Source: a virus
DNA: 33,706 bases
IMG/VR virus record: IMGVR_UViG_3300032285_001150
Location: 1-33,706 of that record
Reading direction: 5' to 3' (one strand)
Shown here piece after piece: positions 1,252 to 29,127 of this stretch. The position numbers were made by a program, and so were the translations under genes. The notes under the pieces were generated by a model. It did no database searches. It was not told the DNA's origin and saw only the letters and a program-made list of their open reading frames with translations. How positions within the stretch are numbered: position 1 is the first letter of the stretch; the number at the start of each line of letters is the position of its first letter.

Positions 1252-4200
1252 ATGGCCACATTAAATTCACCAGGCGTAGCGGTAACGGTAGTAGATGAAA
1301 GTTTCTACACACCATCTGCTCCAGGTACAACACCACTAATCATTGTTGCGTCACAACAAGACAAGACAAACTCAGCAGGCACAGGAATTGCCGCTGGTAC
1401 ACAAAAAGCAAATGCAGGTCAAGTTTATCTGCTAACTAGCCAAATGGATCTAGGTTCTGCTTTTGGTACTCCTTACTTCCAAACAGACGCTGGCAATAAT
1501 CCAGTACACGCCGGCGAGCTTAATGAATATGGATTGCAAGCCGCTCACAGCTATCTAGGAGTAAGCAGTAGAGCTTATATTCTACGTGCTGATGTTAATA
1601 CTGCGCAACTAATTGGAACTAGTAATATTCCAGCAGGTAGCCCAGCAAATAACACATTCTGGTTTGACACAACTGACACAGCATTTGGTGTATTTGAATG
1701 GAATGCTAACCCAGCTACTACCAGTGGCGGACAGACATTTACCAATAGAGTTCCAGCAGTAATCACAGATACTAGCAAGATGGATGCATCAAACGGTTAT
1801 GCGCCTTTGCAAAGTTTTGGTGCTATCGGTACTTACGCAGTGACTTGCAATGGCACAGGTAACAAGTTATTTTTTAAGAACTATACTGGTACATGGGTAT
1901 TAGTTGGTTCTAATGCATGGACAGCTAGCTGGCCAACAGCAACTAGCACACTAAGTAGCCCAACACTAAACAGTTCTTATTCATTAACTATTGCGGCGAC
2001 TGGCAACGGACTAGCTCCAACTATTAGTGCAACTCCAACAGCTACAACTGCTCCACGCACGGTCACTGTTACAGCAACAGCAGTTACAAACAATTTGATT
2101 ACTGCTACTAATACGCTAGTAGCTGGTGATGTTATTGTATTCAGTTCTAGCTTTAACGGCATTTCAAGTGCTACAACTTATTATGTTTTGGCTGCTAATC
2201 TATCAGGCAGTCAGTTTTCAGTTAGTTTATCCGCAGGCGGAACACCTGTGACAATTAGCACAACTGGTGCGGCAAGCTCAACTGGTACTGTTACAACATT
2301 AACTGGTACCGCTTGCAACGTGATCACAAGTGCAAACGCAGGCACTAACCTAGTAGTTGGTGATCCTATCGTATTCGGCGGAACAGTGTTTGGTGGTATC
2401 GTATCGGGTACAACATACTATGTGTTGGCTGCGACTGGTAACTATTTCACAATTAGTGCTACTCAAGGCGGAACCCCATTTGTGTTAACAACAGCAAGTG
2501 GCGCTTCTATGACTGCTATTGAAACTGAAACTACATACACTGCAACAGGCGCAACAACTTTCACACAGTTAGCTGCCGCAATCAACGGCAAAATAGCCGG
2601 TGTTACAGCAGTAGTAACTAGTAGCAACCAATTGGCTCTATATTGCAATGGCACTATCGACCAACTAGTTCTAAGCGGTACACTATGCGGAACAGGCACT
2701 GGAGCATCAGGATTAACAGCAGGAACTTATCTAGCACCTGCGATGACTATTTCTGCACACACTAGTGTTCCAACTTACAAATTAACCGATAACAGTTCCA
2801 GTGTTAATGGACGCCCTACAGGATCTGTATGGGTTAAATCTACATATCCAAACCTAGGCGCTAACTGGGCAGTATGGGTATACAACAGTGCAACTGCTAA
2901 TTTTTCATCGATAAGTGCTCCGCTATATGCAACACACCAAGAGGCAATTTATAACCTTGATCCATCGGGCGGTGGTGTTAACATTGCAGTGGGTTCTTTA
3001 TATGTCAAATACGACGATGCAGAATATACAGGACATGCCGTTAATCCACAGGTAGCAGATTTTAAAATCTATCGCCGTGCTAATGCCGGTACGACAACTA
3101 TTACAACTGCTATCATTAAGGCAACAACATTTACTTCTGGTACTAACACATTTAGTGCTATCGAAAGCACACCAGCAAGCGCAACACTAAGCAATGCTAA
3201 AACTATCACTTTTACAGCAGTAGGCAATGCTACTACTGATGCTATAGCGTTAGCTGGAGCTATCAATGCCGCTGGATTTGCTAACGTTGTTGCTGATATC
3301 AATAGCAGTAATCAGATTACAATTAGCCACAACGACGGCGGTGAGATTCGTTTCTTAGATGGAACAAACACTCCATTAAGCAAGTCGGGTCTAGTACCAG
3401 GAACAACTGCTAATTTATATTCTTCCCCAGCAGGCGAATCCACATACACATTCGGTGTTGCAAGTAACTGGACTGTATTGGTGACCAATGCTACAGCAGG
3501 CATCACTTATGTTGCCAGCGCAACGAGCCCAACAACACTAACTACTGATGGACAACTATGGTACAACAGCAGTACTAGCGATGTTGATATCATGGTTAAC
3601 GATGGTACACATTGGAGAGGTTTAAACAACTATAACTTTACCACTCGTACTAGTGCGGCTTTTAACTATGGACAGACAGCAGTGACAGCATTTGCTGGTG
3701 CAAACGCAACAGATCCAAACGGTCCGTTCGTACAAGCAACTGCTCCAACAGTACAAACAGACGGTACTGCACTAGTCCAAGGTGATATTTGGGTCAGCAC
3801 AGCAGACTTAGAAAATTATCCAAAGGTCTACATATGGAATACCAGTAGCCTAACATGGGTATTGAAAGATAACACAGACGGCACTACAGAAAATGGTATC
3901 ATATTCCGTGATGCTCGCTGGAATTCAAATGGCCTAACTGGCGCACAAGACACAATCATCACTATGATGAACAGTGACTTCTTAGATTATGATGCTCCGG
4001 ATCCTGCACTATATCCAAAAGGTATGTTGCTATGGAACTTGCGTCGTAGCAGTTTCAACGTTAAGAAGTTCGTGCAGAACTACGTTAACATACTGAACAA
4101 GAATCCACGTAGCTGGACTAATGAATCACAGACTTCTTATTATCCACATGCATGGGTTAGCCAGGCTGCAAACCAAGCAAAAGGTCAAGGAACATTTGGA

Positions 4201-5145
4201 CGCAAGGCTCAACGTGCAGTTATTGTACAAGCTCTTGCACTAGCAGTAGCTACGAACCAAAACATCCGCAATGAAGATTCATTAAACTACAATTTGATTG
4301 CCTGCCCTGGATATCCAGAATTAATTGACGAACTAGTAGCTCTAAACTACGATCGTGGTATCCAGAGTTTTGTTGTAGCAGATACTCCTGCACGTCTTGC
4401 ACCAGATACAACTAGTGTAAGCAAGTGGGGTAATAACACACTAGGCGCTCCAACAAATGGAGAAACAGGATTAACAACGACAGATCCGTATCTTGGCATC
4501 TACTACCCATGGGGTTATACTACAGATAACTTAGGAAATAATATTGTTGTTCCTCCAAGCCACATGATGCTACGCACAATCGCATTAAGCGACAATGTTT
4601 CTTATCCATGGTTTGCACCAGCAGGAACACGTCGTGGTGGAATTACAAATGCAAGTGCGGTAGGATATGTAGATACAACCGGTTCATTCCAATCAGTATC
4701 CTTAAACACAAGTCAACGAGATACTCTTGCAAGTGTTCATGTTAACCCAATCACATTCATCAGCGGAACAGGACTAGTTGCTTATGGACAGTATACACGT
4801 CAACTGGCTTCAAGCAGTCTAGACCGTATCAACGTAGCACGTTTAGTAGTGTACTTACGTCGTCAATTCAATATCTTGGCTAAGCCATTCGTGTTTGAAC
4901 CTAACGATACAATTACACGTAATGAAATTAAGAACGCGGCAGACAGTCTATTGTTAGAACTAGTTGGACAACGTGCTATCTATGACTACTTGGTAGTTTG
5001 TGATTCAAGTAACAACACTCCTGCTAGAATAGATCGCAGTGAATTACATCTTGATGTAGCGATCGAACCAGTTAAGGCAGCGGAATTTATCTATATTCCA
5101 CTGCGTCTAGAAAAGACTGGCGCGATCAAAGGTCTAGGACAATAA
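1252..5145 (+). CDS. gp18: Contractile tail sheath protein, greatly enlarged (gp18)
   Basis: The N-terminus (MATLNSPGVAVTVVDES) and the C-terminal 400 residues (from about residue 881, ENGIIFRDARW, through the LRRSSFNVKKFVQNY region to the final LRLEKTG) are characteristic of marine T4-like gp18. The subunit polymerises around the tail tube and contracts at infection. At 1297 residues it is about twice T4 gp18 (659 aa). The extra length, roughly residues 190-880, is Thr/Ser/Ala/Gly-rich. It contains two copies of a module with (L)V.GD.IVF and TTYYVLAA motifs (about 284-350 and 365-425) and two AINGKIAG/AINAAGF modules with SSNQ motifs (about 440-470 and 667-705). These should be surface decorations. 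The gene follows a perfect late promoter and a GGAG site, and is followed after 15 bases by the tube gene. Confidence 0.92.
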   Translation: MATLNSPGVAVTVVDESFYTPSAPGTTPLIIVASQQDKTNSAGTGIAAGTQKANAGQVYLLTSQMDLGSAFGTPYFQTDAGNNPVHAGELNEYGLQAAHSYLGVSSRAYILRADVNTAQLIGTSNIPAGSPANNTFWFDTTDTAFGVFEWNANPATTSGGQTFTNRVPAVITDTSKMDASNGYAPLQSFGAIGTYAVTCNGTGNKLFFKNYTGTWVLVGSNAWTASWPTATSTLSSPTLNSSYSLTIAATGNGLAPTISATPTATTAPRTVTVTATAVTNNLITATNTLVAGDVIVFSSSFNGISSATTYYVLAANLSGSQFSVSLSAGGTPVTISTTGAASSTGTVTTLTGTACNVITSANAGTNLVVGDPIVFGGTVFGGIVSGTTYYVLAATGNYFTISATQGGTPFVLTTASGASMTAIETETTYTATGATTFTQLAAAINGKIAGVTAVVTSSNQLALYCNGTIDQLVLSGTLCGTGTGASGLTAGTYLAPAMTISAHTSVPTYKLTDNSSSVNGRPTGSVWVKSTYPNLGANWAVWVYNSATANFSSISAPLYATHQEAIYNLDPSGGGVNIAVGSLYVKYDDAEYTGHAVNPQVADFKIYRRANAGTTTITTAIIKATTFTSGTNTFSAIESTPASATLSNAKTITFTAVGNATTDAIALAGAINAAGFANVVADINSSNQITISHNDGGEIRFLDGTNTPLSKSGLVPGTTANLYSSPAGESTYTFGVASNWTVLVTNATAGITYVASATSPTTLTTDGQLWYNSSTSDVDIMVNDGTHWRGLNNYNFTTRTSAAFNYGQTAVTAFAGANATDPNGPFVQATAPTVQTDGTALVQGDIWVSTADLENYPKVYIWNTSSLTWVLKDNTDGTTENGIIFRDARWNSNGLTGAQDTIITMMNSDFLDYDAPDPALYPKGMLLWNLRRSSFNVKKFVQNYVNILNKNPRSWTNESQTSYYPHAWVSQAANQAKGQGTFGRKAQRAVIVQALALAVATNQNIRNEDSLNYNLIACPGYPELIDELVALNYDRGIQSFVVADTPARLAPDTTSVSKWGNNTLGAPTNGETGLTTTDPYLGIYYPWGYTTDNLGNNIVVPPSHMMLRTIALSDNVSYPWFAPAGTRRGGITNASAVGYVDTTGSFQSVSLNTSQRDTLASVHVNPITFISGTGLVAYGQYTRQLASSSLDRINVARLVVYLRRQFNILAKPFVFEPNDTITRNEIKNAADSLLLELVGQRAIYDYLVVCDSSNNTPARIDRSELHLDVAIEPVKAAEFIYIPLRLEKTGAIKGLGQ

Positions 5146-17184: not shown

Positions 17185-18393
17185 ATGATAACAGTAGACA
17201 ATTTCCTAACACAACTTAATCAGCATGGTTTAGAAAATTTCGAAGGTCACGTTAGTAGGCGAGATCTGAAAGTTTTACGCAGTCTTGCGACCAGCATATG
17301 TTTACCTAGTTTTATCACAGAAAACCAAGCTAGGCTACTGCATAAGATTTTAGAAAACAATCTACATGCTTTTAGCCAGGTAGATTCCGAACTCGAGGAA
17401 ATTTTAATCTTAAACTCTTGGTCAAAAGAATTTAGGATAGTAGAGCAAATCAGAAAAATCTATCTCAGTAAAGCCGAACCCATGATTGTGGTAGAATTTA
17501 CCCATAATATGGCAATACGCAAGGCTTTACAGAATAGTAAGCATGAAAATTTCGAGTATGTTTCTTATATCAAGTCGCCTGATGGTAAGAAAACTGCTTT
17601 TGCTCTGACCGAAAAGAATATTCTCGGCCTTGTTGAAACACTAAAACCTTACAAATTTGATATCGACGAAAAAATCCTGAATTTTTACGAAATTATCAAA
17701 AATTTCCAGATTTCTAAGATCAAGGAAGATTTTACATTTGGAGAAAATATGATATCTCCGCTGAAAAATGCTCTTGAACAGGAGCTTGGTCTGTTGGAAA
17801 ATGTTTCTGAAGAAAAAATTCAGGACCGTAAAATACGCTATCAGTATTTTTTGAAAAAAACCGAAAAAATACCAAAAAATCCGGAAAATTTGAAGGAAAC
17901 CATAATTTTTAGATCTCAGCCTAAAGTGTGGATCGACAGCAAAAAGTATTCTCTCTCAGAAGTTTTTGCAGAATTGAAAAATCTCGATCGATTACCAGCC
18001 CTGGTGGTTTTTGATTCATGGAACGATGATGCATGTGTTAAAAATATCGAGATTTTTTCAGAAAGTTTGGAAAAAAATGGAATTTCTGAGAATGTAGGAA
18101 TTTACTTTCGTCTGGAAAATAATGAGCATGGCAAGATTTTTAATGAATTTATAAAAATAAAAAATTATAATTCACAACTAAACGATCATACATCCATAGC
18201 AGGCGTACAAACCGGAAAATTACCGAAATTTTTCCTAAAAGATTGCAATTGGTCACCGAAAAGTGTTATTGTATTAGGAACTAATCTCAGACACAGTAAG
18301 ACAGCAGTATATGCCAATCGATGTGATCTTATACTGTCATACGCTGAGAAGGATAGCATAATAGAGAACACATATAATCCATGGCGCAAGTAA
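17185..18393 (+). CDS. Unknown 402-aa protein upstream of uvsW, possible HARP-like helicase relative without motor motifs
   Basis: The protein is Lys/Glu/Asn-rich and no Walker A or B motif is visible. Residues about 95-165 (PMIVVEFTHNMAIRKAL, then KKTAFALTEKNILGLVETL and FDIDEKI) resemble in pattern the HARP-type DNA-recognition domain found before the motor of some SF2 annealing helicases. The C-terminal part (SVIVLGTNLRHSKTAVYANRCDLILSYAEKDS region) could be a remnant of a helicase C-terminal lobe. Its codons are richer in A/T runs than neighbouring genes, especially 17650-18180, which may point to a different origin. It has its own early promoter and overlaps uvsW by 13 bases, so the two are co-expressed. 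The HARP resemblance is tentative. Confidence 0.75.
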   Translation: MITVDNFLTQLNQHGLENFEGHVSRRDLKVLRSLATSICLPSFITENQARLLHKILENNLHAFSQVDSELEEILILNSWSKEFRIVEQIRKIYLSKAEPMIVVEFTHNMAIRKALQNSKHENFEYVSYIKSPDGKKTAFALTEKNILGLVETLKPYKFDIDEKILNFYEIIKNFQISKIKEDFTFGENMISPLKNALEQELGLLENVSEEKIQDRKIRYQYFLKKTEKIPKNPENLKETIIFRSQPKVWIDSKKYSLSEVFAELKNLDRLPALVVFDSWNDDACVKNIEIFSESLEKNGISENVGIYFRLENNEHGKIFNEFIKIKNYNSQLNDHTSIAGVQTGKLPKFFLKDCNWSPKSVIVLGTNLRHSKTAVYANRCDLILSYAEKDSIIENTYNPWRK

Positions 18394-19850
18394 GACTGAT
18401 CATAAAAGACGAGGTCAATATCAAGCTAGAAGGGCTTGATATTGAGGCTCGACGCAAATTAGCAAATACATTCAAATATTTTGCTCCTTATGCTCGCTAT
18501 CATCCTGCATACAAGCTAGGACGGTGGGATGGCACTGTAAGTCTTTTTGGTCTCGGTGGAAATGGCTACCTAAATCAGCTGGAAAAAATACTAGAAATTC
18601 TTAATGGAATGGGTATAGATATCGACAGCATTGATGATCAACGGCACACTCATAATCTAGCATTCACCGAAGTCACTGAGACATATTGGGCCGATCAAGG
18701 TAAGGTCTGGCCTAAAGGTCACCAACAAGAAGGACAGCCTATCATGTTGCGTGACTATCAGGTAGAGGCAGTTAACATCTTCTTGCAAAATCCACAAAGT
18801 TTGCAAGAAATTGCCACTGGTGCAGGCAAGACAATTACTACAGCAACACTGAGTCATCTGTCGGAAAAGATTGGCAGAAGTATTATCATTGTTCCTAATA
18901 AGTCATTAGTTGAACAAACTGAGGAAGACTTTGTCAACGTAGGATTAGATGTGGGTGTATACTACGGAGATCGCAAAGATCTCGGAAAAACCCATACGAT
19001 TTGCACTTGGCAAAGTCTTAATATTTTAGACAAAAAGTCAAAAAATCACGAGCAAGACATACTAACTCTTGCAGAATTTTTAGATGGCGTTAAGACTGTT
19101 ATTGTAGATGAAGTACACATGGCTAAAGCAGATGTACTGAAAAATCTATTAACACAGAACGTATGTAATGCTCCAATTCGTTGGGGATTGACTGGCACTG
19201 TGCCTAAAGAAGCACACGAAGCAGAAAGCATTTTTGCCAGCATTGGCCCAGTAGTTGGGCGGTTGTCAGCAAAGGAATTACAAGACAAAGGCGTTTTAAG
19301 TAATTGCCATGTCAACATTGTACAGCTGATAGATCTTCCAGAATTTAGCAGTTATGCAGAAGAATTAAAGTATCTTGTCACGGAAGAAGACAGGATGATA
19401 TACATCTCAAAATTAATAAAATCAATATCTCAAACAGGCAACACACTGGTTCTCGTCAACAGGATCGACTCAGGCAAATTCTTAATCAATGAACTACCAG
19501 ACGCAGTCTTTATATCCGGTGCAGTTAAAACCAAAGATCGAAAAGAAGAATACGATGAAATTAAAACTAGCGATAACAAGATTATTGTGGCCACTTTTGG
19601 CGTGGCCGCTGTCGGAATTAATATTCCTCGCATTTTTAATTTGGTTCTATTAGAACCAGGCAAGAGTTTTGTCAGAGTAATACAATCGATTGGACGTGGT
19701 ATCCGCAAAGCCGAAGATAAAGATTTCGTTCAGATCTGGGATATAACCAGTACCTGTAAGTATGCAAAAAGGCATCTTACAGAAAGAAAGAAATTTTATA
19801 AAGAGGCCAAGTATCCGTTTACTATAGAAAAGACGGATTGGTCCAAATAG
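18381..19850 (+). CDS. uvsW: UvsW-type SF2 DNA/RNA helicase
   Basis: The 489-residue protein matches T4 UvsW (503 aa). It shows an N-terminal DNA-recognition domain (about 1-110), Walker A ATGAGKT with K150, a DEVH box at D243-H246, LTGTVPKE (motif III region) and QSIGRGIRKAEDK (motif VI). UvsW unwinds branched DNA and R-loops, so it moves the phage from origin-dependent to recombination-dependent replication. The start overlaps the preceding gene and no ribosome site is visible, so translational coupling is likely. A TATAAT lies just upstream (18373-18378) but has no -35 partner. Confidence 0.93.
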   Translation: MAQVRLIIKDEVNIKLEGLDIEARRKLANTFKYFAPYARYHPAYKLGRWDGTVSLFGLGGNGYLNQLEKILEILNGMGIDIDSIDDQRHTHNLAFTEVTETYWADQGKVWPKGHQQEGQPIMLRDYQVEAVNIFLQNPQSLQEIATGAGKTITTATLSHLSEKIGRSIIIVPNKSLVEQTEEDFVNVGLDVGVYYGDRKDLGKTHTICTWQSLNILDKKSKNHEQDILTLAEFLDGVKTVIVDEVHMAKADVLKNLLTQNVCNAPIRWGLTGTVPKEAHEAESIFASIGPVVGRLSAKELQDKGVLSNCHVNIVQLIDLPEFSSYAEELKYLVTEEDRMIYISKLIKSISQTGNTLVLVNRIDSGKFLINELPDAVFISGAVKTKDRKEEYDEIKTSDNKIIVATFGVAAVGINIPRIFNLVLLEPGKSFVRVIQSIGRGIRKAEDKDFVQIWDITSTCKYAKRHLTERKKFYKEAKYPFTIEKTDWSK

Positions 19851-21238: not shown

Positions 21239-21711
21239 GTGAAAAAGTAGAACTTAAGGAAAAGATACTTGCTGTCGACACTAATGTCAGAGAGCTATGG
21301 GATGCCATGGATCCTGAACAGCAGAAACATCTAAAGAGCGAGTTCTATATATTAAATCGGTATATTTCTAATGTTAAAGCTAACAATAGAGAGATGCAGG
21401 AACATCATGTACTGGCTGTAAACGAATACTTCAACAAGAATTGGCAACACCTGCAGAAACATCCTAAACTTCTTTGGTTATTGTTATGTATGTGCAGTTA
21501 TGATGGCAAGACCAAATTCTTCCACGAATGGATTGGTTTTAAGAAAAAGACTGGAAACAGCAAGAAGGCCAAATTTCTAATGGAGTTATATCCTTCTCGT
21601 AAAGTCGATGAGTGCGAATTGTTAGCAGATCTAATGACCGATAAAGAAGTCATAGAACTTGCTGGACAATATGGCATGGATGAAGCAACTGTTAAGAAAC
21701 AGATAAAATGA
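21235..21711 (+). CDS. Possible clamp-loader small subunit (gp62-like)
   Basis: This is a 158-residue helical protein. The order of segments (EFYILNRYIS, then VLAVNEYFNKNW, LQKHPKLLWLLLCMCS, and FFHEWIGFKKK) resembles the compact gp62 proteins of marine T4-likes, in which an aromatic-x-x-N-R-x-x-S motif is followed by an N-x-x-N stretch and a basic aromatic motif near RW. gp62 works with the gp44 ATPase to load the gp45 sliding clamp. T4 gp62 is longer (187 aa), and neither gp44 nor gp45 is next to this gene. The assignment is only a suggestion. It is coupled by ATGA overlaps on both sides. Confidence 0.75.
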   Translation: MSEKVELKEKILAVDTNVRELWDAMDPEQQKHLKSEFYILNRYISNVKANNREMQEHHVLAVNEYFNKNWQHLQKHPKLLWLLLCMCSYDGKTKFFHEWIGFKKKTGNSKKAKFLMELYPSRKVDECELLADLMTDKEVIELAGQYGMDEATVKKQIK

Positions 21712-22397
21712 TTATAGATGTAGCTACATATACCTGTCAGTATTGTGGTAATAAGTTCCAGAAAGAAAAAACTCTGGCCGTGCATCTATGTGAGCAGAAA
21801 CGCAGAGCACTGGCAAAGACCGAAAAGCATGTGGTTTTAGGATACGATACATATAACAGATTCTATCGTAAGACACAGAATAGTAAACAAGACAAGACCT
21901 ATGAAGATTTTGCAAAAAGTCCTTATTACAATGCTTTCGTTAAGTTTGGCAGTTTTGTTAGCAATGTTAATCCGTTATATCCCGACAGATTTATCGATTA
22001 TGTTGTCACATCGGGAGTAAAACTTGATCATTGGTGCAGAGATGAATTGTATGAGAAATATGTATTAGATCTTATCAAATCAGAAACTGTAGAAACTGCG
22101 CTACAGCGTAGCATAGGACATATGATGTCATGGGCGGATGATCACAATGCACAATGGAATCATTATTTCAGCTATGTTAGTTTGAACAGAGCAACGTTTG
22201 ATATTAAAGATGGTAAGGTAAGTCCTTGGATTATACTTAACAGTTCTAGCGGTAAAACCATGCTAAGTAAGTTTAGCGACGAACAGTTGGCGGCCATTAG
22301 TACTATTATAGATCCTCAATTCTGGCTGAGGAAATTTAAGCAACACCCTGCTGACATAGAATTTGTTAAACAGGTCGTCAAGGAATCAAATATATGA
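21708..22397 (+). CDS. Zinc-finger protein, function unknown
   Basis: The N-terminal 28 residues (TCQYCGNKF, then LAVHLC) hold C10, C13, H26 and C28, a C2H2/C2HC-like zinc finger similar to nucleic-acid-binding fingers. The remaining 200 residues are mixed alpha/beta, rich in aromatic residues (for example SPYYNAFVKFGSFVSNV, LYPDRFIDYVV, PQFWLRKFKQHP), and have no motif I know. Total length is 229. It overlaps both neighbours by ATGA. The finger and the position among replication genes suggest nucleic-acid binding. I considered the gp59 helicase loader (217 aa in T4) but could not align it. Confidence 0.75.
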   Translation: MIIDVATYTCQYCGNKFQKEKTLAVHLCEQKRRALAKTEKHVVLGYDTYNRFYRKTQNSKQDKTYEDFAKSPYYNAFVKFGSFVSNVNPLYPDRFIDYVVTSGVKLDHWCRDELYEKYVLDLIKSETVETALQRSIGHMMSWADDHNAQWNHYFSYVSLNRATFDIKDGKVSPWIILNSSSGKTMLSKFSDEQLAAISTIIDPQFWLRKFKQHPADIEFVKQVVKESNI

Positions 22398-22594
22398 AAA
22401 CACGCATACTGCAAGATGGCAGGGTGGTAGAAGAATTAGAAGAAGCAAGGACACTTTCTGTTAAGACACGATGCCCAGATAAATGGATTTTAATAGATAT
22501 GGAGACAGGCGAGCAATATCAACCTTATAAAAACAAAGGCTCCCTCGACTGGGAAAAAGTTAATGCAGTAACTTGGAAAAGGGTTGAATTCTAA
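22394..22594 (+). CDS. Small conserved phage protein
   Basis: The 66-residue protein begins MKTRILQDGRVVEELEEARTL and ends WEKVNAVTWKRVEF. It overlaps the zinc-finger gene by ATGA and the next gene by a shared A (TAATG), so the three are translationally coupled. The C-terminal beta-strand/Trp pattern suggests a small folded domain. No function can be given. Confidence 0.7.
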   Translation: MKTRILQDGRVVEELEEARTLSVKTRCPDKWILIDMETGEQYQPYKNKGSLDWEKVNAVTWKRVEF

Positions 22595-23175
22595 TGCCAG
22601 ATATTGATATAGATTTTGCTGATAGGACAAAAGCACTTGAACATTTCAAGTATGTAACTGCGGCCATACAAGAAGATAGTGGTACTTTTAAGAAGCACAA
22701 CACTGGTATATATTGCACTTCTATACCGCACAATCCGTTTACTAAATTGAGTACTATAGATTATAAGGCAGCGGAAGAGCGTGGCTATTTTAAGATAGAT
22801 TTTTTAAATGTTAGCATCTACAAAGGGATTAGAGACGAAGCACATCTCAAACATTTGATGGAGACTGAACCACTATGGGATCTACTAGAGCAAGACGACT
22901 TTACCCAACTCCTGTTCCATGTGAATGGGCATGGGTCTATTCTGAGACAAGTAAAACCAAAATCTATAGAACAGTTGGCCGCAGTATTGGCGATGATCAG
23001 GCCCGCGAAACGTTATCTGATTGGGAAAGACTGGACTACGGTGATGATGGAAGTGTGGACGAAACCAGAGAATGACGAGTATTATTTTAAGAAAGCCCAT
23101 GCAGTAGCCTATGCAGTGGCAGTAGTGGTGCAGATGAATTTAATATGTGAACAGATAAGCTGGGAGTATTCTTAA
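22594..23175 (+). CDS. Minimal DnaE-like protein (bacterial DNA polymerase III alpha palm fragment)
   Basis: The 193-residue protein resembles the catalytic palm region of bacterial Pol III alpha. MPDIDIDFADR matches the PDxDxDF motif with two catalytic aspartates (D5, D7). FKIDFL (K67, D69) matches the third aspartate with its Lys. Residues about 107-146 (FHVNGHGSILRQVKPKSIEQLAAVLAMIRP) match the FQ.ES.GM...KP...EDL.A..AL.RPG motif. FKKAHAVAYAVAVVVQ (about 164-180) matches FNKSHAVAY. Missing are the PHP domain, the upstream Gly-Ser nucleotide-binding motif, and the clamp- and OB-domains; DnaE is over 1100 residues. It begins exactly at the catalytic motif. It is the last gene of a coupled cluster and ends convergently with a minus-strand gene (4-base overlap). 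Polymerase activity is doubtful. Confidence 0.8.
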   Translation: MPDIDIDFADRTKALEHFKYVTAAIQEDSGTFKKHNTGIYCTSIPHNPFTKLSTIDYKAAEERGYFKIDFLNVSIYKGIRDEAHLKHLMETEPLWDLLEQDDFTQLLFHVNGHGSILRQVKPKSIEQLAAVLAMIRPAKRYLIGKDWTTVMMEVWTKPENDEYYFKKAHAVAYAVAVVVQMNLICEQISWEYS

Positions 23176-23546
23176 CGGACTTTTCGTACTAGTTGTACGC
23201 TTTTTCGTTTGACACGTTTCATCGTTAGATTCAGTAAATTTACTACAGGCCCTAGCACTATCCGAACATCTTTGCTATTAAATGTCTTGATACAGTAGGC
23301 AAAGGGAGTTATTTGATCTCTGCAGAAAATATTGATAGGAAACTGGCGATTGCTCTCCCACCACCATGTTTCACCTATTTGCAAGAAAGCTTCTTTATGC
23401 CCAGGATCGCGTATGGCATTTAGATCATAGAAGCTAGTTACATACTGATCTTGATTTATAATGATGCCCACATATTCCTCGCCACCGTAGTTGATGACGC
23501 TGATAAATGGTAGATTTCTCTCTATATCGTCTCTTAATTTTGCCAT
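23172..23546 (-). CDS. Conserved T4-like phage protein (minus strand)
   Basis: The 124-residue protein has YGGEEYVGIIINQDQYVTSFYDL, an ETWWWESNRQFPINIF segment and a basic C-terminus ending KRVKRKSVQLVRKVR. The pattern (Trp-rich core, TFNSKDVRIVLGPV, terminal Lys/Arg) is familiar from a marine T4-like hypothetical protein. An upstream in-frame TTG at 23573 exists, but the ATG at 23546 gives the natural MAKLRDDIERN start. A perfect late promoter on the minus strand (23592-23599) drives it. No ribosome site is evident. Its start codon lies within the opposing plus-strand late promoter. Function unknown; the basic tail may bind nucleic acid. Confidence 0.75.
   Translation of the reverse strand: MAKLRDDIERNLPFISVINYGGEEYVGIIINQDQYVTSFYDLNAIRDPGHKEAFLQIGETWWWESNRQFPINIFCRDQITPFAYCIKTFNSKDVRIVLGPVVNLLNLTMKRVKRKSVQLVRKVR
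23185..23206 (+). terminator. Weak terminator-like hairpin after the DnaE-like gene
   Basis: CGTAC/GTACG with a 5-base loop is followed by CTTTTTC. The 5-bp stem is short and lies within the convergent minus-strand gene, so the call is weak. Confidence 0.35.
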
Positions 23547-23551
23547 AAATA
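23544..23551 (+). promoter_or_regulatory. T4-type late promoter (plus)
   Basis: CATAAATA leads to a predicted start near 23557 and an AAGGGG ribosome site before the ATG at 23574. The box overlaps the start codon of the minus-strand gene. Confidence 0.65.
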
Positions 23552-23573
23552 CTTGTAAGGGGTCTTTGTCCAA

Positions 23574-24512: not shown

Positions 24513-25502
24513 ATGAGTATAATCACGGACACAATAGTTAATTTTCTTCCACCAAAAAGGAAGGTAACTCCTAGCGGTTGGATTAGTTTCAATGCAGTGT
24601 GTTGTGACGACCAAAGACAGCGTGGCGGATTCATAGTTAACGGTGGCGATGCTGTTAGCTATCATTGCTTCAATTGCGGATTTAAATCTAGCTGGCAACC
24701 TGGCAGAAACATTAGCCAGAAGATGCGCCAATTCATGCGCAAGCTCAACATGCCCGATGACATTATATCTCAACTAAGTCTTGAAGCACTTAGATTAAGT
24801 GAAACTGATAGTGTTAAAATAAGAGAAGTGATTCCTAAGTTTGATGCTAGAGCATTACCAATGGATTCTAAAGGTTTTGCTGAGTGGGATAGTTGGCTAC
24901 ATGTAGCTACGCCGGATCTTGCTCCTGAAGGATTAGTCAAGGTTGTTAATTACATCAATGACAGATGCATTCATCCTCTCAGCTATCCATTTTACTATTC
25001 GAACAAAGTCGGATTTAGTAACAGAATTATTATTCCTTTTATCTATAAAGGAGAAATAGTTGGTTGGACTGCTCGGGCAGTAAACGATGCCAAACCTAAA
25101 TATATCAGCGAACAACAGCCAGGCTATGTTTTTAATCTAGACAATCAGACTAGCGATCGAAAATTCGTGATAGTAAGCGAAGGACCATTTGATGCACTAA
25201 GTATTGATGGATGCGCTTTGTTAGGAGCTGAAATTAAAGAAAGCCAAAACTGGTTGCTCAAACAGTTAAATCGAGAAATTATCCTCGTTCCAGATAAAGA
25301 TCACGAAGGACCCAGGACTGTTGAACAAGCGATAGAGTTTGGGTGGAGTGTTAGCATGCCATCGTGGCCTGAGGGTATCAAAGATGTTAACGATGCTGTA
25401 ATTAAATTAGGTAAACTAGCTGTGCTATATATGATAGTTGCGAGTAAAGAATCTAATGAATTAAAAATAAGATTACGTGCTAAGACATGGTTTAAGGAGT
25501 AA
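24513..25502 (+). CDS. gp61: DNA primase (gp61)
   Basis: The 329-residue protein matches T4 gp61 (342 aa). The N-terminal zinc ribbon is formed by C30/C31 and C52/C55 (HCFNCGF). The TOPRIM catalytic domain shows VSEGPFDALS with its Glu, and LVPDKDHEG with the Asp-x-Asp pair, followed by KDVNDAV. It makes the short RNA primers for lagging-strand synthesis as part of the gp41 primosome. It has its own early promoter placed directly before the ATG. A GGAG at its end serves the next small gene. In this phage primase and helicase genes are separated only by a 37-codon gene and a carbamoyltransferase. Confidence 0.92.
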   Translation: MSIITDTIVNFLPPKRKVTPSGWISFNAVCCDDQRQRGGFIVNGGDAVSYHCFNCGFKSSWQPGRNISQKMRQFMRKLNMPDDIISQLSLEALRLSETDSVKIREVIPKFDARALPMDSKGFAEWDSWLHVATPDLAPEGLVKVVNYINDRCIHPLSYPFYYSNKVGFSNRIIIPFIYKGEIVGWTARAVNDAKPKYISEQQPGYVFNLDNQTSDRKFVIVSEGPFDALSIDGCALLGAEIKESQNWLLKQLNREIILVPDKDHEGPRTVEQAIEFGWSVSMPSWPEGIKDVNDAVIKLGKLAVLYMIVASKESNELKIRLRAKTWFKE

Positions 25503-25503
25503 T

Positions 25504-25617
25504 ATGCGAAAACTTTTAGACATAATACTGTATCCTTATCGTGCGATAATGGAACATATTCGATTCAAGAAAAGACTTAAAGAATTACGGAAGCGAGATC
25601 CGTTTATCTACAAATGA
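25504..25617 (+). CDS. 37-residue basic peptide gene
   Basis: The peptide starts MRKLLDIILYPYRAIMEHI and continues with a strongly basic helix (RFKKRLKELRKR) ending DPFIYK. The N-terminal part is amphipathic or hydrophobic, so membrane contact is possible. A GGAG site lies in the last codons of gp61 and the ATG follows the gp61 stop by one base. Its own stop overlaps the carbamoyltransferase start (ATGA). Strong ribosome site, coupling and a protein-like composition support it as real, but I cannot assign a role. Confidence 0.7.
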   Translation: MRKLLDIILYPYRAIMEHIRFKKRLKELRKRDPFIYK

Positions 25618-27092
25618 TTAGCTGGGGAATATCAGGCAATAGCCATGATGCGGCATTGTCAGTATTTGTCGACGGACAACTGACATTCGCTAGCCATGCT
25701 GAACGCTTCAGTAAACAGAAAAACGATAGGGATCTTAATACCAATATAGTAGCACATGCTAAACAATGGGGCGATCCGGATCGTGTTTACTGGTACGAAC
25801 GTCCGTTGCTTAAGACTATAAGGCAATTTTATGCCGGACAAGGTTGGAAAGGACGCGATAACGATATAGAAATCTACATGGCTAGATATGGAATCGATGC
25901 ACCTATTGAATATGTAGATCATCATCTTAGCCATGCCGCAGGCGGCTATTTTACTAGTGGATTTGATGAGGCCTGTATTGTAGTTATAGATGCTATCGGA
26001 GAATGGGATACTGCTACAATATGGGAAGCAAGCGGCGATAATATCAAAAAGAAATGGAGTTTGCGTTATCCCCACAGTGTGGGTCTATTCTACAGCGCCA
26101 TGACCCAGCGGGTAGGATTAAAACCCAATGAAGATGAATATATCTTAATGGGCATGGCTGCATATGGTGATTATAAAAAACTATACGATCAAATGAGCCA
26201 CGACTTTATTGACAACTATTCTAATTTAAAATTTATTAGGAATTGTCATAGAGGTGTGCAGGATTGGCGACCAGATTTAACAGTTAAAGATAGTTTTGAA
26301 ATCGCTGCCACTGTACAGAAGATCTACGAAGACTACTTTCAACATCTTTTAATAAAGGCAAAACAATTGGTCAAGAGTACAAATCTAGTACTCATGGGCG
26401 GGTGTGCATTGAATTGCTCTGCTAATCGACTGGTAGGAAATTATTTCGACAATACCTGGATAATGCCGAATCCCGGGGATGCTGGCAGTTCAGTCGGAGC
26501 AGTTTTGGCCAAGAATCCCGAATGGCGTATCGATCCTGAAGATTTCACACCGTTCTTAGGTTATGATATGAAGTCGAGCACTAGCAATAAAGATATTGTA
26601 AATTATTTGATAGAGCATAAGATATGTGGCGTAGCTAGAGATCGTGCAGAATTTGGGCCACGTGCATTAGGTAATAGAAGTCTGCTGGCCGATCCTCGAG
26701 ATCCGGAAATAAAAGATAGAGTGAATGATATTAAACAGAGACAACAGTTCCGACCATTTGCTCCAATGATCCTAGAAGAACACGTAGAAAAATACTTTAA
26801 ATTACCTTACGGTGTTTATAATAGTAGATACATGCAATATACCGCTGTCTGCAGAGAACCCGAGAAATATCCTGCTATTGTACATAAAGACGGTACTAGT
26901 AGAGTACAAACTGTTCCTAAAGAAGGAGTCAAAGGCAGTCAGATTCGAGAATTGTTAGAATTATGGTATGATAAGACCGGTTGTCCTATGTTGCTAAACA
27001 CCAGCCTTAATATAAAAGGACAAGCTATGGTTAACGATATTGCAGATGCAAGGGCTTTTGAACGTCAATACGGTGTTAAAGTCTTTAACTAG
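25614..27092 (+). CDS. O-carbamoyltransferase (NodU/CmcH/TobZ family), candidate DNA-modifying enzyme
   Basis: The 492-residue protein shows all hallmarks of the family. The N-terminal Kae1-like domain opens with GISGNSHDAALSVF and has VDHHLSHAAGGYF (H103, H104, H107; metal and nucleotide site), VIDAIGEWDT and GGCALNCSANR. The C-terminal domain has EFGPRALGNRSLLADPR (carbamoyl-phosphate site) and LNTSLNIKGQAMV. Family members use carbamoyl phosphate and ATP to carbamoylate a hydroxyl group. In phages the likely target is a hydroxyl on a modified base, as carbamoyltransferases acting on 5-hydroxymethylcytosine are known from viral communities. The location between primase and helicase and early expression fit DNA modification. 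Carbohydrate targets cannot be excluded. Confidence 0.85.
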   Translation: MISWGISGNSHDAALSVFVDGQLTFASHAERFSKQKNDRDLNTNIVAHAKQWGDPDRVYWYERPLLKTIRQFYAGQGWKGRDNDIEIYMARYGIDAPIEYVDHHLSHAAGGYFTSGFDEACIVVIDAIGEWDTATIWEASGDNIKKKWSLRYPHSVGLFYSAMTQRVGLKPNEDEYILMGMAAYGDYKKLYDQMSHDFIDNYSNLKFIRNCHRGVQDWRPDLTVKDSFEIAATVQKIYEDYFQHLLIKAKQLVKSTNLVLMGGCALNCSANRLVGNYFDNTWIMPNPGDAGSSVGAVLAKNPEWRIDPEDFTPFLGYDMKSSTSNKDIVNYLIEHKICGVARDRAEFGPRALGNRSLLADPRDPEIKDRVNDIKQRQQFRPFAPMILEEHVEKYFKLPYGVYNSRYMQYTAVCREPEKYPAIVHKDGTSRVQTVPKEGVKGSQIRELLELWYDKTGCPMLLNTSLNIKGQAMVNDIADARAFERQYGVKVFN

Positions 27093-27107: not shown

Positions 27108-28562
27108 ATGAGTGAAAATAAAGATAAAGCAAGACAAAACGTTGATTATGGTTATGAAATCCAACGTGTATATTTAGAGATGATGTTGGCCGATGCCGGT
27201 ACATTTGTACGCTGTCAGTCGATATTCGACAGCAAGTTGTTTGACAGAAAACTACAGCCAGCGGCAGAATTCCTTACTAGATATGTAAGTGAAAACAATG
27301 TTCTTCCAACGCCAGACATTATCAATGCGGCAACTGGATCTACATTAAAGCCTGCAACAGATTTGCGAGAAGAGCATTTTGAATGGCTGATGAATGATTT
27401 TGAAACTTTTACAAGACACAAAGGTCTTGAAAGAGCTATCTTGGAATCAGCAGACCTGCTTGAAAAAGGAGAGTATGGTCCTGTTGAAGAAAAGATCAAA
27501 CAGGCAGTACAGGTAGGACTGCAACGTGACATGGGTACTGATTATTTTGCAGACCCTCGAAAAAGATTGATGGCAATTAAGGACAAAAATGGACAAATTT
27601 CGACAGGTTGGAAAAATGTTGATGACAAGCTATTTGGAGGCTTTAACCGTGGCGAGCTCAACATTTGGGCGGGCGGTTCAGGTGCTGGTAAATCCTTATT
27701 TCTGGCTAATCTTGGTGTCAATTATGCTCTCGCTGGATATAATGTAATCTATCTAACATTAGAACTTAGTGAAGAACTCGTAAGTATGCGTGTAGATGCT
27801 ATGGTAACTGGCATACCAACTAGGGAGATTTTCAAGAACATTGACGATGTTGAAATGAAAGTTAAAATGATTGGTAAGAAGTCTGGACAGTTCCAAGTCA
27901 AATATATGCCTAGTGGCAAGACAGCCAATGATATCCGTGCTTACTTAAAAGAATATGAAATTAAGATGGGACGTAAGGTCGATGTACTATTAGTCGACTA
28001 TATGGATTTGTTGATGCCTTTGAGCAAGAGAATTAGTGCTGAAAATCTGTTTGTTAAAGACAAGTATGTATCGGAAGAATTGCGTAATCTTGCGGTTGAA
28101 AAGAACTGTATCTTTGTGACAGCGGCACAGTTGAATCGAGGCGCTGTTGAAGAAGTTGAATTTGATCACAGCCATATTTCAGGCGGACTATCTAAGATTC
28201 AGACAGCAGATAACGTGTTTGGTATCTTTACAAGTCGTGCTATGCGTGAGCGGGGACGCTATCAAATCCAATTAATGAAAACACGTAGTTCAAGTGGTGT
28301 TGGACAAAAAATCGATTTGGAGTTCAACATCGATACACTAAGAATTACAGACTTGTTGGAAGATGATTATAATAGTCCAGGGCAAACTGCTGGTAGCACA
28401 TTGCTGAACAGTATTAAGCAAAAAACAACTATCACGGCTGCTGGAGAAGCATTTTCGGACCCAACAGCTGGTGTAGCCGTTCCTAAAGTACAAGCCAAAG
28501 TTGAGAGCTCGAAATTGCGAGAATTGCTGAATAATTTACCTGGTGATTCCGAAGAGTTCTAG
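27108..28562 (+). CDS. gp41: Replicative DNA helicase, DnaB-like (gp41)
   Basis: The 484-residue protein (T4: 475) has an N-terminal helical domain and a RecA-like motor with Walker A GGSGAGKS (K195), Walker B LLVDYMD (D297), the AAQLNRGAVEE segment and an arginine-finger-type region near KTRSSSG. It unwinds DNA at the fork as a hexamer and works with gp61 primase. The ATG has no ribosome site; a TATAAT sits just upstream. The C-terminal 70 residues are low complexity and end in an acidic LPGDSEEF tail. Confidence 0.93.
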   Translation: MSENKDKARQNVDYGYEIQRVYLEMMLADAGTFVRCQSIFDSKLFDRKLQPAAEFLTRYVSENNVLPTPDIINAATGSTLKPATDLREEHFEWLMNDFETFTRHKGLERAILESADLLEKGEYGPVEEKIKQAVQVGLQRDMGTDYFADPRKRLMAIKDKNGQISTGWKNVDDKLFGGFNRGELNIWAGGSGAGKSLFLANLGVNYALAGYNVIYLTLELSEELVSMRVDAMVTGIPTREIFKNIDDVEMKVKMIGKKSGQFQVKYMPSGKTANDIRAYLKEYEIKMGRKVDVLLVDYMDLLMPLSKRISAENLFVKDKYVSEELRNLAVEKNCIFVTAAQLNRGAVEEVEFDHSHISGGLSKIQTADNVFGIFTSRAMRERGRYQIQLMKTRSSSGVGQKIDLEFNIDTLRITDLLEDDYNSPGQTAGSTLLNSIKQKTTITAAGEAFSDPTAGVAVPKVQAKVESSKLRELLNNLPGDSEEF

Positions 28563-28614: not shown

Positions 28615-29127
28615 ATGGCCCAACAAGACATTCTACGCAAGTACTTAGACATATTGAACGAATCTACTCCTGCTGAAAAAGCGGAAGCAATGATTACATT
28701 AGATCGAGTATCTGCTCCTAGTGAAAATCCAGTAGCTGAACTATTAGAAGCAGTTTCTAGATTCAAACAATCACAGCCGGATCTAGCACAAGATACACGT
28801 TTAGATCCTAAGACATTAGCTCGAATCATGTCTCTATCAAAAGTAATGGAAGACGATATGGGTCCTATGGCTCCTGCTGATACGATGACTCCACCTAATG
28901 GTCCTAATACTCCTACTCCTAATCAAATGCCTATGAGCGAAAATATCATGGACACTTTGCGCAAGAAGGCTGCATTGCATCGTGGTTATTCGCACGGATT
29001 AATGGGCGATTCGCATACCCATTGTGCCCACAAAGAAGGTACTCCTGAACATATGCATTGGCATCACGGCTACAGCGAAGGTCTTAAAGAATGTAGTGGA
29101 GTTTGGAAATTACCAGGTTCTATGTAA
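28615..29127 (+). CDS. Late protein with a C-terminal ribosome-modulation-factor-like motif
   Basis: In this 170-residue protein the C-terminal part (about 119-157) matches the RMF signature in order and spacing: A-x3-GY (G124, Y125), G128, G131, C137, then W149 and GY (G152, Y153). E. coli RMF has A-x3-GY-x2-G-x2-G-x5-C and then W and GW. RMF dimerises 70S ribosomes into an inactive form. The region is also His-rich (about nine His), so metal binding is an alternative. The N-terminus (MAQQDILRKYLDILNE) is a helix ending in L-N-E, which fits an L/I-x-E prohead protease site, and the middle is Pro/Met-rich. It has tandem late promoters and its own terminator. Function is inferred. Confidence 0.75.
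   Translation: MAQQDILRKYLDILNESTPAEKAEAMITLDRVSAPSENPVAELLEAVSRFKQSQPDLAQDTRLDPKTLARIMSLSKVMEDDMGPMAPADTMTPPNGPNTPTPNQMPMSENIMDTLRKKAALHRGYSHGLMGDSHTHCAHKEGTPEHMHWHHGYSEGLKECSGVWKLPGSM

Follow-up and report, generated by a model that had tools for sequence, protein, structure and literature searches.

The window discussed here, by which we mean the whole stretch of 33,706 nucleotides that was analysed, comes from an uncultured phage (IMG/VR virus record IMGVR_UViG_3300032285_001150). At its centre of interest is a gene for a protein of 193 amino acids, the translation of which starts MPDIDIDF. We refer to this protein as the C half and to its partner in related phages as the N half. The gene, the sites within it and its neighbours are given below; residues are assigned by alignment to Escherichia coli DnaE, and the fractions are the related loci that carry each neighbour.

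18381-19850, plus strand: UvsW-type helicase (phrog_16, E = 2.7e-77; 53/56 loci)
21708-22397, plus strand: upstream neighbour, a phrog_11058 protein of 229 aa (56/56 loci)
22594-23175, plus strand: C half of a putative split minimal Pol III alpha (phrog_11778), 193 aa
22600-22614, plus strand: D3-I-D5-I-D7; D3 and D5 correspond to metal ligands D401 and D403, D7 to D405
22792-22800, plus strand: K67-I-D69; equivalents of K553 and of the third metal ligand, D555
22999-23010, plus strand: fingers motif R136-P137-A138-K139, aligned with E. coli RPG (639-641)
23098-23100, plus strand: H169, equivalent of the steric-gate residue H760
23172-23573, minus strand: convergent neighbour, a phrog_11637 protein, start codon uncertain (56/56 loci)
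24513-25502, plus strand: DNA primase, T4 gp61-like (phrog_47, E = 1.2e-39; 56/56 loci)
27108-28562, plus strand: DnaB-like replicative helicase, T4 gp41-like (phrog_19, E = 9.6e-68; 56/56 loci)

Taken alone, the C half gives weak Pfam and PDB sequence matches. As a single sequence it reaches E = 0.015 with the Pfam model DNA_pol3_finger, below the cut-off, and the same model is matched by 47 of 62 members of its family. The PHROG profiles speak more clearly: E = 1.6e-66 against phrog_11778, annotated as 'DNA polymerase', and E = 1.3e-9 against phrog_405, the full-length phage DnaE. The motifs PDIDIDF, FKIDFL, KP...AMIRP and FKKAHAVAYA are all present in the order in which they occur in DnaE, as a preliminary description of this DNA had pointed out. 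From these profile matches, and from a structural comparison in which the convincing hits are confined to C-family enzymes, we regard the window protein as a homologue of the palm-and-fingers part of bacterial DNA polymerase III alpha, in agreement with that description. It keeps 193 of the 1160 residues of DnaE, so the earlier figure of 'about 85%' missing was right in length. It spans only E. coli DnaE 399-784; the PHP domain and OB fold are gone, as had been noted, and so are the HhH and a complete thumb. Chance resemblance to Pol III alpha was rejected on the PHROG E-values, the structure matches and the existence of at least 557 relatives. A mis-called start hiding an upstream Gly-Ser part was likewise rejected: in the window, the frame is closed by a TGA three codons before the start, and no GRGS was found in the short in-frame upstream stretches of 80 relatives.

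The absence of the Gly-Ser motif from the 193-residue protein had been remarked on from the start, and that observation holds. What changes is its meaning, since in relatives the motif is supplied by a second phage gene. The product of that gene, the N half (phrog_11127, about 165-180 aa), carries the GRGS nucleotide-binding palm subdomain; in 55 sequences, G134 and G136-V141 (GRGSSV) are invariant. The two halves are colinear on phrog_405, where the N half occupies positions 358-429 and the C half 580-678. On E. coli DnaE, the N-half profile aligns by hhalign to 346-392, which is also where its PDB profile matches end, and the C half takes up at 399. N halves end immediately behind an FLK/FLR/FLN block, the equivalent of E. 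coli ERFL392, and C halves begin M-PDIDIDF at the position of E. coli M399, so that overall the two tile E. coli DnaE 271-393 plus 399-784. In the alignment, the N half has an acidic position where E. coli DnaE has R390, and triphosphate contacts may therefore differ.

AlphaFold modelled each half on its own with high pLDDT (91.3 for the C half, 90.7 for the N half). The only convincing PDB matches of the C-half model are C-family polymerases: its residues 1-191 match E. coli 400-784 (2hnh, Z 8.9, 186 residues, 3.7 Å), PolC 971-1296 (Z 9.4) and Taq 461-841 (Z 9.8), and the score drops to Z 3.6 at the next, unrelated entry. Comparing a model with Pol III alpha in this way had been proposed beforehand, and the model aligns with both the E. 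coli and the Taq enzymes. Residues 61-168 of the N-half model match E. coli 271-393 (2hnh, Z 9.8, 104 residues, 3.5 Å); the best C-family match has Z 11.7 and the next unrelated entry Z 2.5. Together, the two models cover a predicted palm plus reduced fingers.

C-half relatives occur in at least 557 stretches of viral contigs. Isolates that carry one include Atu_ph07, Phosso, PA5oct, RaK2, PBECO4, GAP32 and BF, with Vibrio phage 2.275.O and SCTP-2 as further examples; the window protein is about 54% identical to the C half of Atu_ph07. Two expectations of the preliminary description, that relatives would be found in other T4-like phages and that such phages encode a family B polymerase (PolB), were thus borne out, the second by 11 of 15 large records. 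In those same 11 records, PF07733 finds a small Gly-Ser-block ORF, and the four that have neither N half nor PolB are fragments of 142-150 kb. Beyond these 11 records, profile searches found both halves in the isolates Slickus01, RAS14 and XacN1 and in eight more long contigs; overall, all ten isolate phages checked have both, as do the window's four close relatives of 180 kb or more. All records with a single half are IMG/VR contigs, 58-213 kb long and possibly incomplete. The stand-alone, stripped palm of the preliminary description gives way to one of two halves, since each isolate relative that was examined encodes a Gly-Ser half at another place in its genome. Among close relatives of the window, the four longest have the two genes about 159-184 kb apart; a 33.7-kb fragment is therefore not expected to hold both, and matched expression of the two is not obvious. 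No N half was found within the 33.7-kb window, and its partner is deduced from relatives; no family B polymerase match was seen among the proteins of this 33.7-kb fragment. In PA5oct, some products carry a mass-spectrometry note, and the C half is without one. C-half relatives also turn up on contigs filed as bacterial or archaeal metagenome-assembled genomes (e.g. Pelagibacter, Pacearchaeota and Natrialbaceae), which are probably phage contigs binned into those genomes.

D401, D403 and D555 of DnaE, aligned with D3, D5 and D69, are absolutely conserved metal ligands, and D405 is a further Asp conserved in DnaE groups (PMC3919608). The preliminary description had named D5, D7 and D69 as the catalytic triad; D5 and D69 stand, D7 is the equivalent of D405, and the third ligand is D3. 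Modelling of E. coli Pol III gives H760 as the steric gate, the residue by which deoxyribose is selected (PMC8485763). Our conservation alignment holds 62 C-half sequences with identity down to 38%, and its invariant columns include D3, D5, D7, H35, G38, K67, D69, W95, R136, P137, K139, K166 and H169. Conservation of the aspartates among relatives, another check that had been suggested, is therefore complete in these 62 sequences. The same residues are kept in 14 of 14 distant phage C halves, except that K166 is Arg in two. A decaying pseudogene was rejected because the median dN/dS over same-length pairs is 0.13 for the C half and 0.20 for the N half, with 1.24 as the highest value for any C-half pair.

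Conservation of this kind bears directly on the idea, raised in the preliminary description, that the protein is a decoy, a mimic of the DnaE palm and fingers that binds holoenzyme parts or DNA and so poisons host replication. The C half is indeed a small protein that resembles host Pol III alpha, and relatives have a PolB replicase of their own, a situation in which host Pol III might be targeted. A mimic, however, need not keep the metal ligands, K67 and the steric-gate His, all of which are invariant. DnaE is held in the holoenzyme through its clamp-binding and OB/tau-binding regions, and the C half is without both. In relatives, a complementary Gly-Ser half that ends at the same joint also accompanies it. 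We consider a decoy or inhibitor of the host replicase very improbable.

Between its conserved landmarks the protein has been pared down. The spacing from D403 to D555 is 152 residues in E. coli and 64 in the C half, which means that most of the thumb has been removed, and the spacing from D555 to H760 falls from 205 to 100, so that the fingers are halved. These losses lend some weight to a two-half enzyme with another chemistry, such as end-tailing, primer synthesis or nucleotidylation of protein or RNA, as do the position of the C-half gene next to that of the primase and the pol-beta nucleotidyltransferase fold of the Pol III palm (PMC7824862). Against such a change of trade, every member retains the fingers motif and the steric-gate His as well as its replication context, and we judge another chemistry unlikely, if less so than a decoy.

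Primase and DnaB genes accompany the C half in every one of the 56 loci, which confirms the earlier placing of the gene in a replication cluster. The phrog_11058 protein, which has a weak zinc-finger-like match at its N terminus, and the phrog_11637 protein are candidate accessory factors. The N-half gene of RaK2 is about 1 kb away from that for the gp44 clamp loader. The company of primase and DnaB, together with the PolB already present in relatives, could also suit a catalytically idle subunit of the replisome, for example a structural bridge from primase-helicase to PolB. Such a subunit is hard to square with catalytic residues that are invariant in both halves and with the low dN/dS. Decoy and scaffold share the same weakness, in that the invariant catalytic and steric-gate residues are left unexplained, and we give the scaffold as slim a chance as the decoy.

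The kind of system has been known since 2021. Iyer et al. 2021 described group 2.2 jumbo phages, among which they name Atu_ph07, as encoding, in addition to a family B polymerase, a minimal Pol III alpha specific to phages, made up of an N-terminal NTP-binding protein and a C-terminal Mg-binding and DNA-template-binding protein encoded by distant genes; they proposed that it works with PolB in strand synthesis or repair and is linked to an ancestral Pol III (PMC7824862). The window carries a probable further member. Its relatives belong to the same phage group, with PolB, UvsW and a gp32-like SSB, and share the minimal C-family core in two proteins from distant genes, and its C half is the Mg-binding and DNA-binding part; unlike the isolates of that group, it comes from an uncultured phage. 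The preliminary description had known of no described function. The family was in fact already in print, and biochemistry is indeed lacking from the portion of that paper drawn on here, as are the exact joint, a residue survey and any test (PMC7824862). Our search of the literature found no biochemical, structural or functional data on any member of the split family. What we add is the exact joint, the corrected residues, the residue survey, structural support for each half, the neighbourhood and the parallel in cbastviruses set out below.

Compared with DnaE and PolC, the split enzyme keeps the palm and fingers fold, the DxD...D triad, K553 and the steric-gate His, with GRGS on the partner. 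It differs from DnaE in having no PHP, HhH or OB, in missing most of the thumb, in its shortened fingers, and in spreading about 360 aa over two proteins where DnaE has 1160 aa in one. Long DnaE proteins of Streptomyces phages and of one 595-kb phage are ordinary and intact, and the intact phage DnaE of Larnav and Werner has a plain short linker at the position of the joint. Among the loci examined, no natural fusion of the two minimal halves was seen. Cyanobacterial DnaE likewise comes from two separate genes, the products of which are spliced covalently by split inteins. In the jumbo phages, by contrast, neither half carries any added sequence at the cut: the N half ends, and the C half begins, directly at the joint, and intein-joined halves were rejected on that ground.

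A closer parallel is found in the cbastviruses. Cellulophaga phage phi19:2 (4828-8428) and Tenacibaculum phage Larrie (4837-8417) encode a full-length DnaE as two tandem genes, with PF07733 split 4-98 and 100-260. The cut falls where the jumbo phages have theirs, after the Gly-Ser subdomain and before the PDID strand. Unlike the window family, these enzymes are otherwise full-length, with PHP, fingers and HhH, and their genes are adjacent. Part A ends with about 50 extra residues and part B opens with 17; these extensions could be what is left of a Hint/split intein, now degenerate, or could serve for docking. A shared programmed frameshift is unlikely, as phi19:2 and Larrie differ in the frame offset from the first gene to the second. 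Neither genome gave a PolA or PolB match. With DnaE cut at the same joint in phages of that kind, a C-family palm in two pieces is probably functional elsewhere.

Our preferred reading, to which we attach a probability of about 0.7, is that the window gene encodes one of two subunits, the C-terminal one, of a minimal C-family nucleotidyltransferase that jumbo T4-like phages make as two proteins with most of the thumb gone. It is supported by homology, by the tiling of the halves and their co-occurrence, by conserved residues and purifying selection, and by the neighbourhood. In such an enzyme, the C half would supply the Mg-binding residues D3, D5 and D69, along with K67 and the shortened fingers with their steric-gate His169, and the phrog_11127 protein, encoded far away, would supply the GRGS nucleotide-binding palm subdomain. 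Together, in trans, they would restore a single palm, with the triphosphate side on the N half and the metals and template side on the C half. With less confidence, we suggest that the complex makes short, distributive stretches of DNA at the fork alongside the family B replicase, most likely as primer extension before PolB takes over or as gap filling in recombination-repair. We favour short synthesis because little that would provide processivity or proofreading remains; most of the thumb, the clamp-binding and exonuclease parts and those that guide the template are missing, and processive synthesis is therefore unlikely.

The boldest form of this reading is a working polymerase with its active site put together in trans by two separately encoded proteins, each about 20 kDa, shorn of most of the thumb and of all clamp-binding and proofreading parts, and dedicated to primer extension or gap filling beside the family B replicase. 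We put it forward tentatively, at a little short of even odds. A 'true mini-polymerase' was, rightly, among the options first listed. To our knowledge, an enzyme assembled in this way would be the smallest C-family polymerase, and one with its palm split without an intein. If active, the two halves would define the minimal catalytic core of bacterial-type replicases, show that a polymerase active site can be built in trans and help separate the parts of DnaE needed for chemistry from those needed for processivity. Activity would also account for the presence, in large phages that have PolB, of a second polymerase of bacterial type beside their primase and helicase. The small size of both proteins, the defined joint and the invariant residues make for a simple direct test.

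Other genes of the window deserve a brief mention. Between primase and DnaB, at 25614-27092, lies a gene for a NodU/Nol-like carbamoyltransferase, present in 41 of the 56 related loci, for which nucleotide or DNA modification is a possible role. Beyond DnaB, at 28615-29127, a 170-aa protein whose C-terminal part matches ribosome modulation factor (PF04957, E = 5e-6, narrowly below the cut-off) perhaps acts on host translation. No diversity-generating repeats were found near the Mtd_N gene. At 1252-5145, the window encodes a tail sheath protein of 1297 aa, the first ~590 residues of which fall outside its best sheath match.
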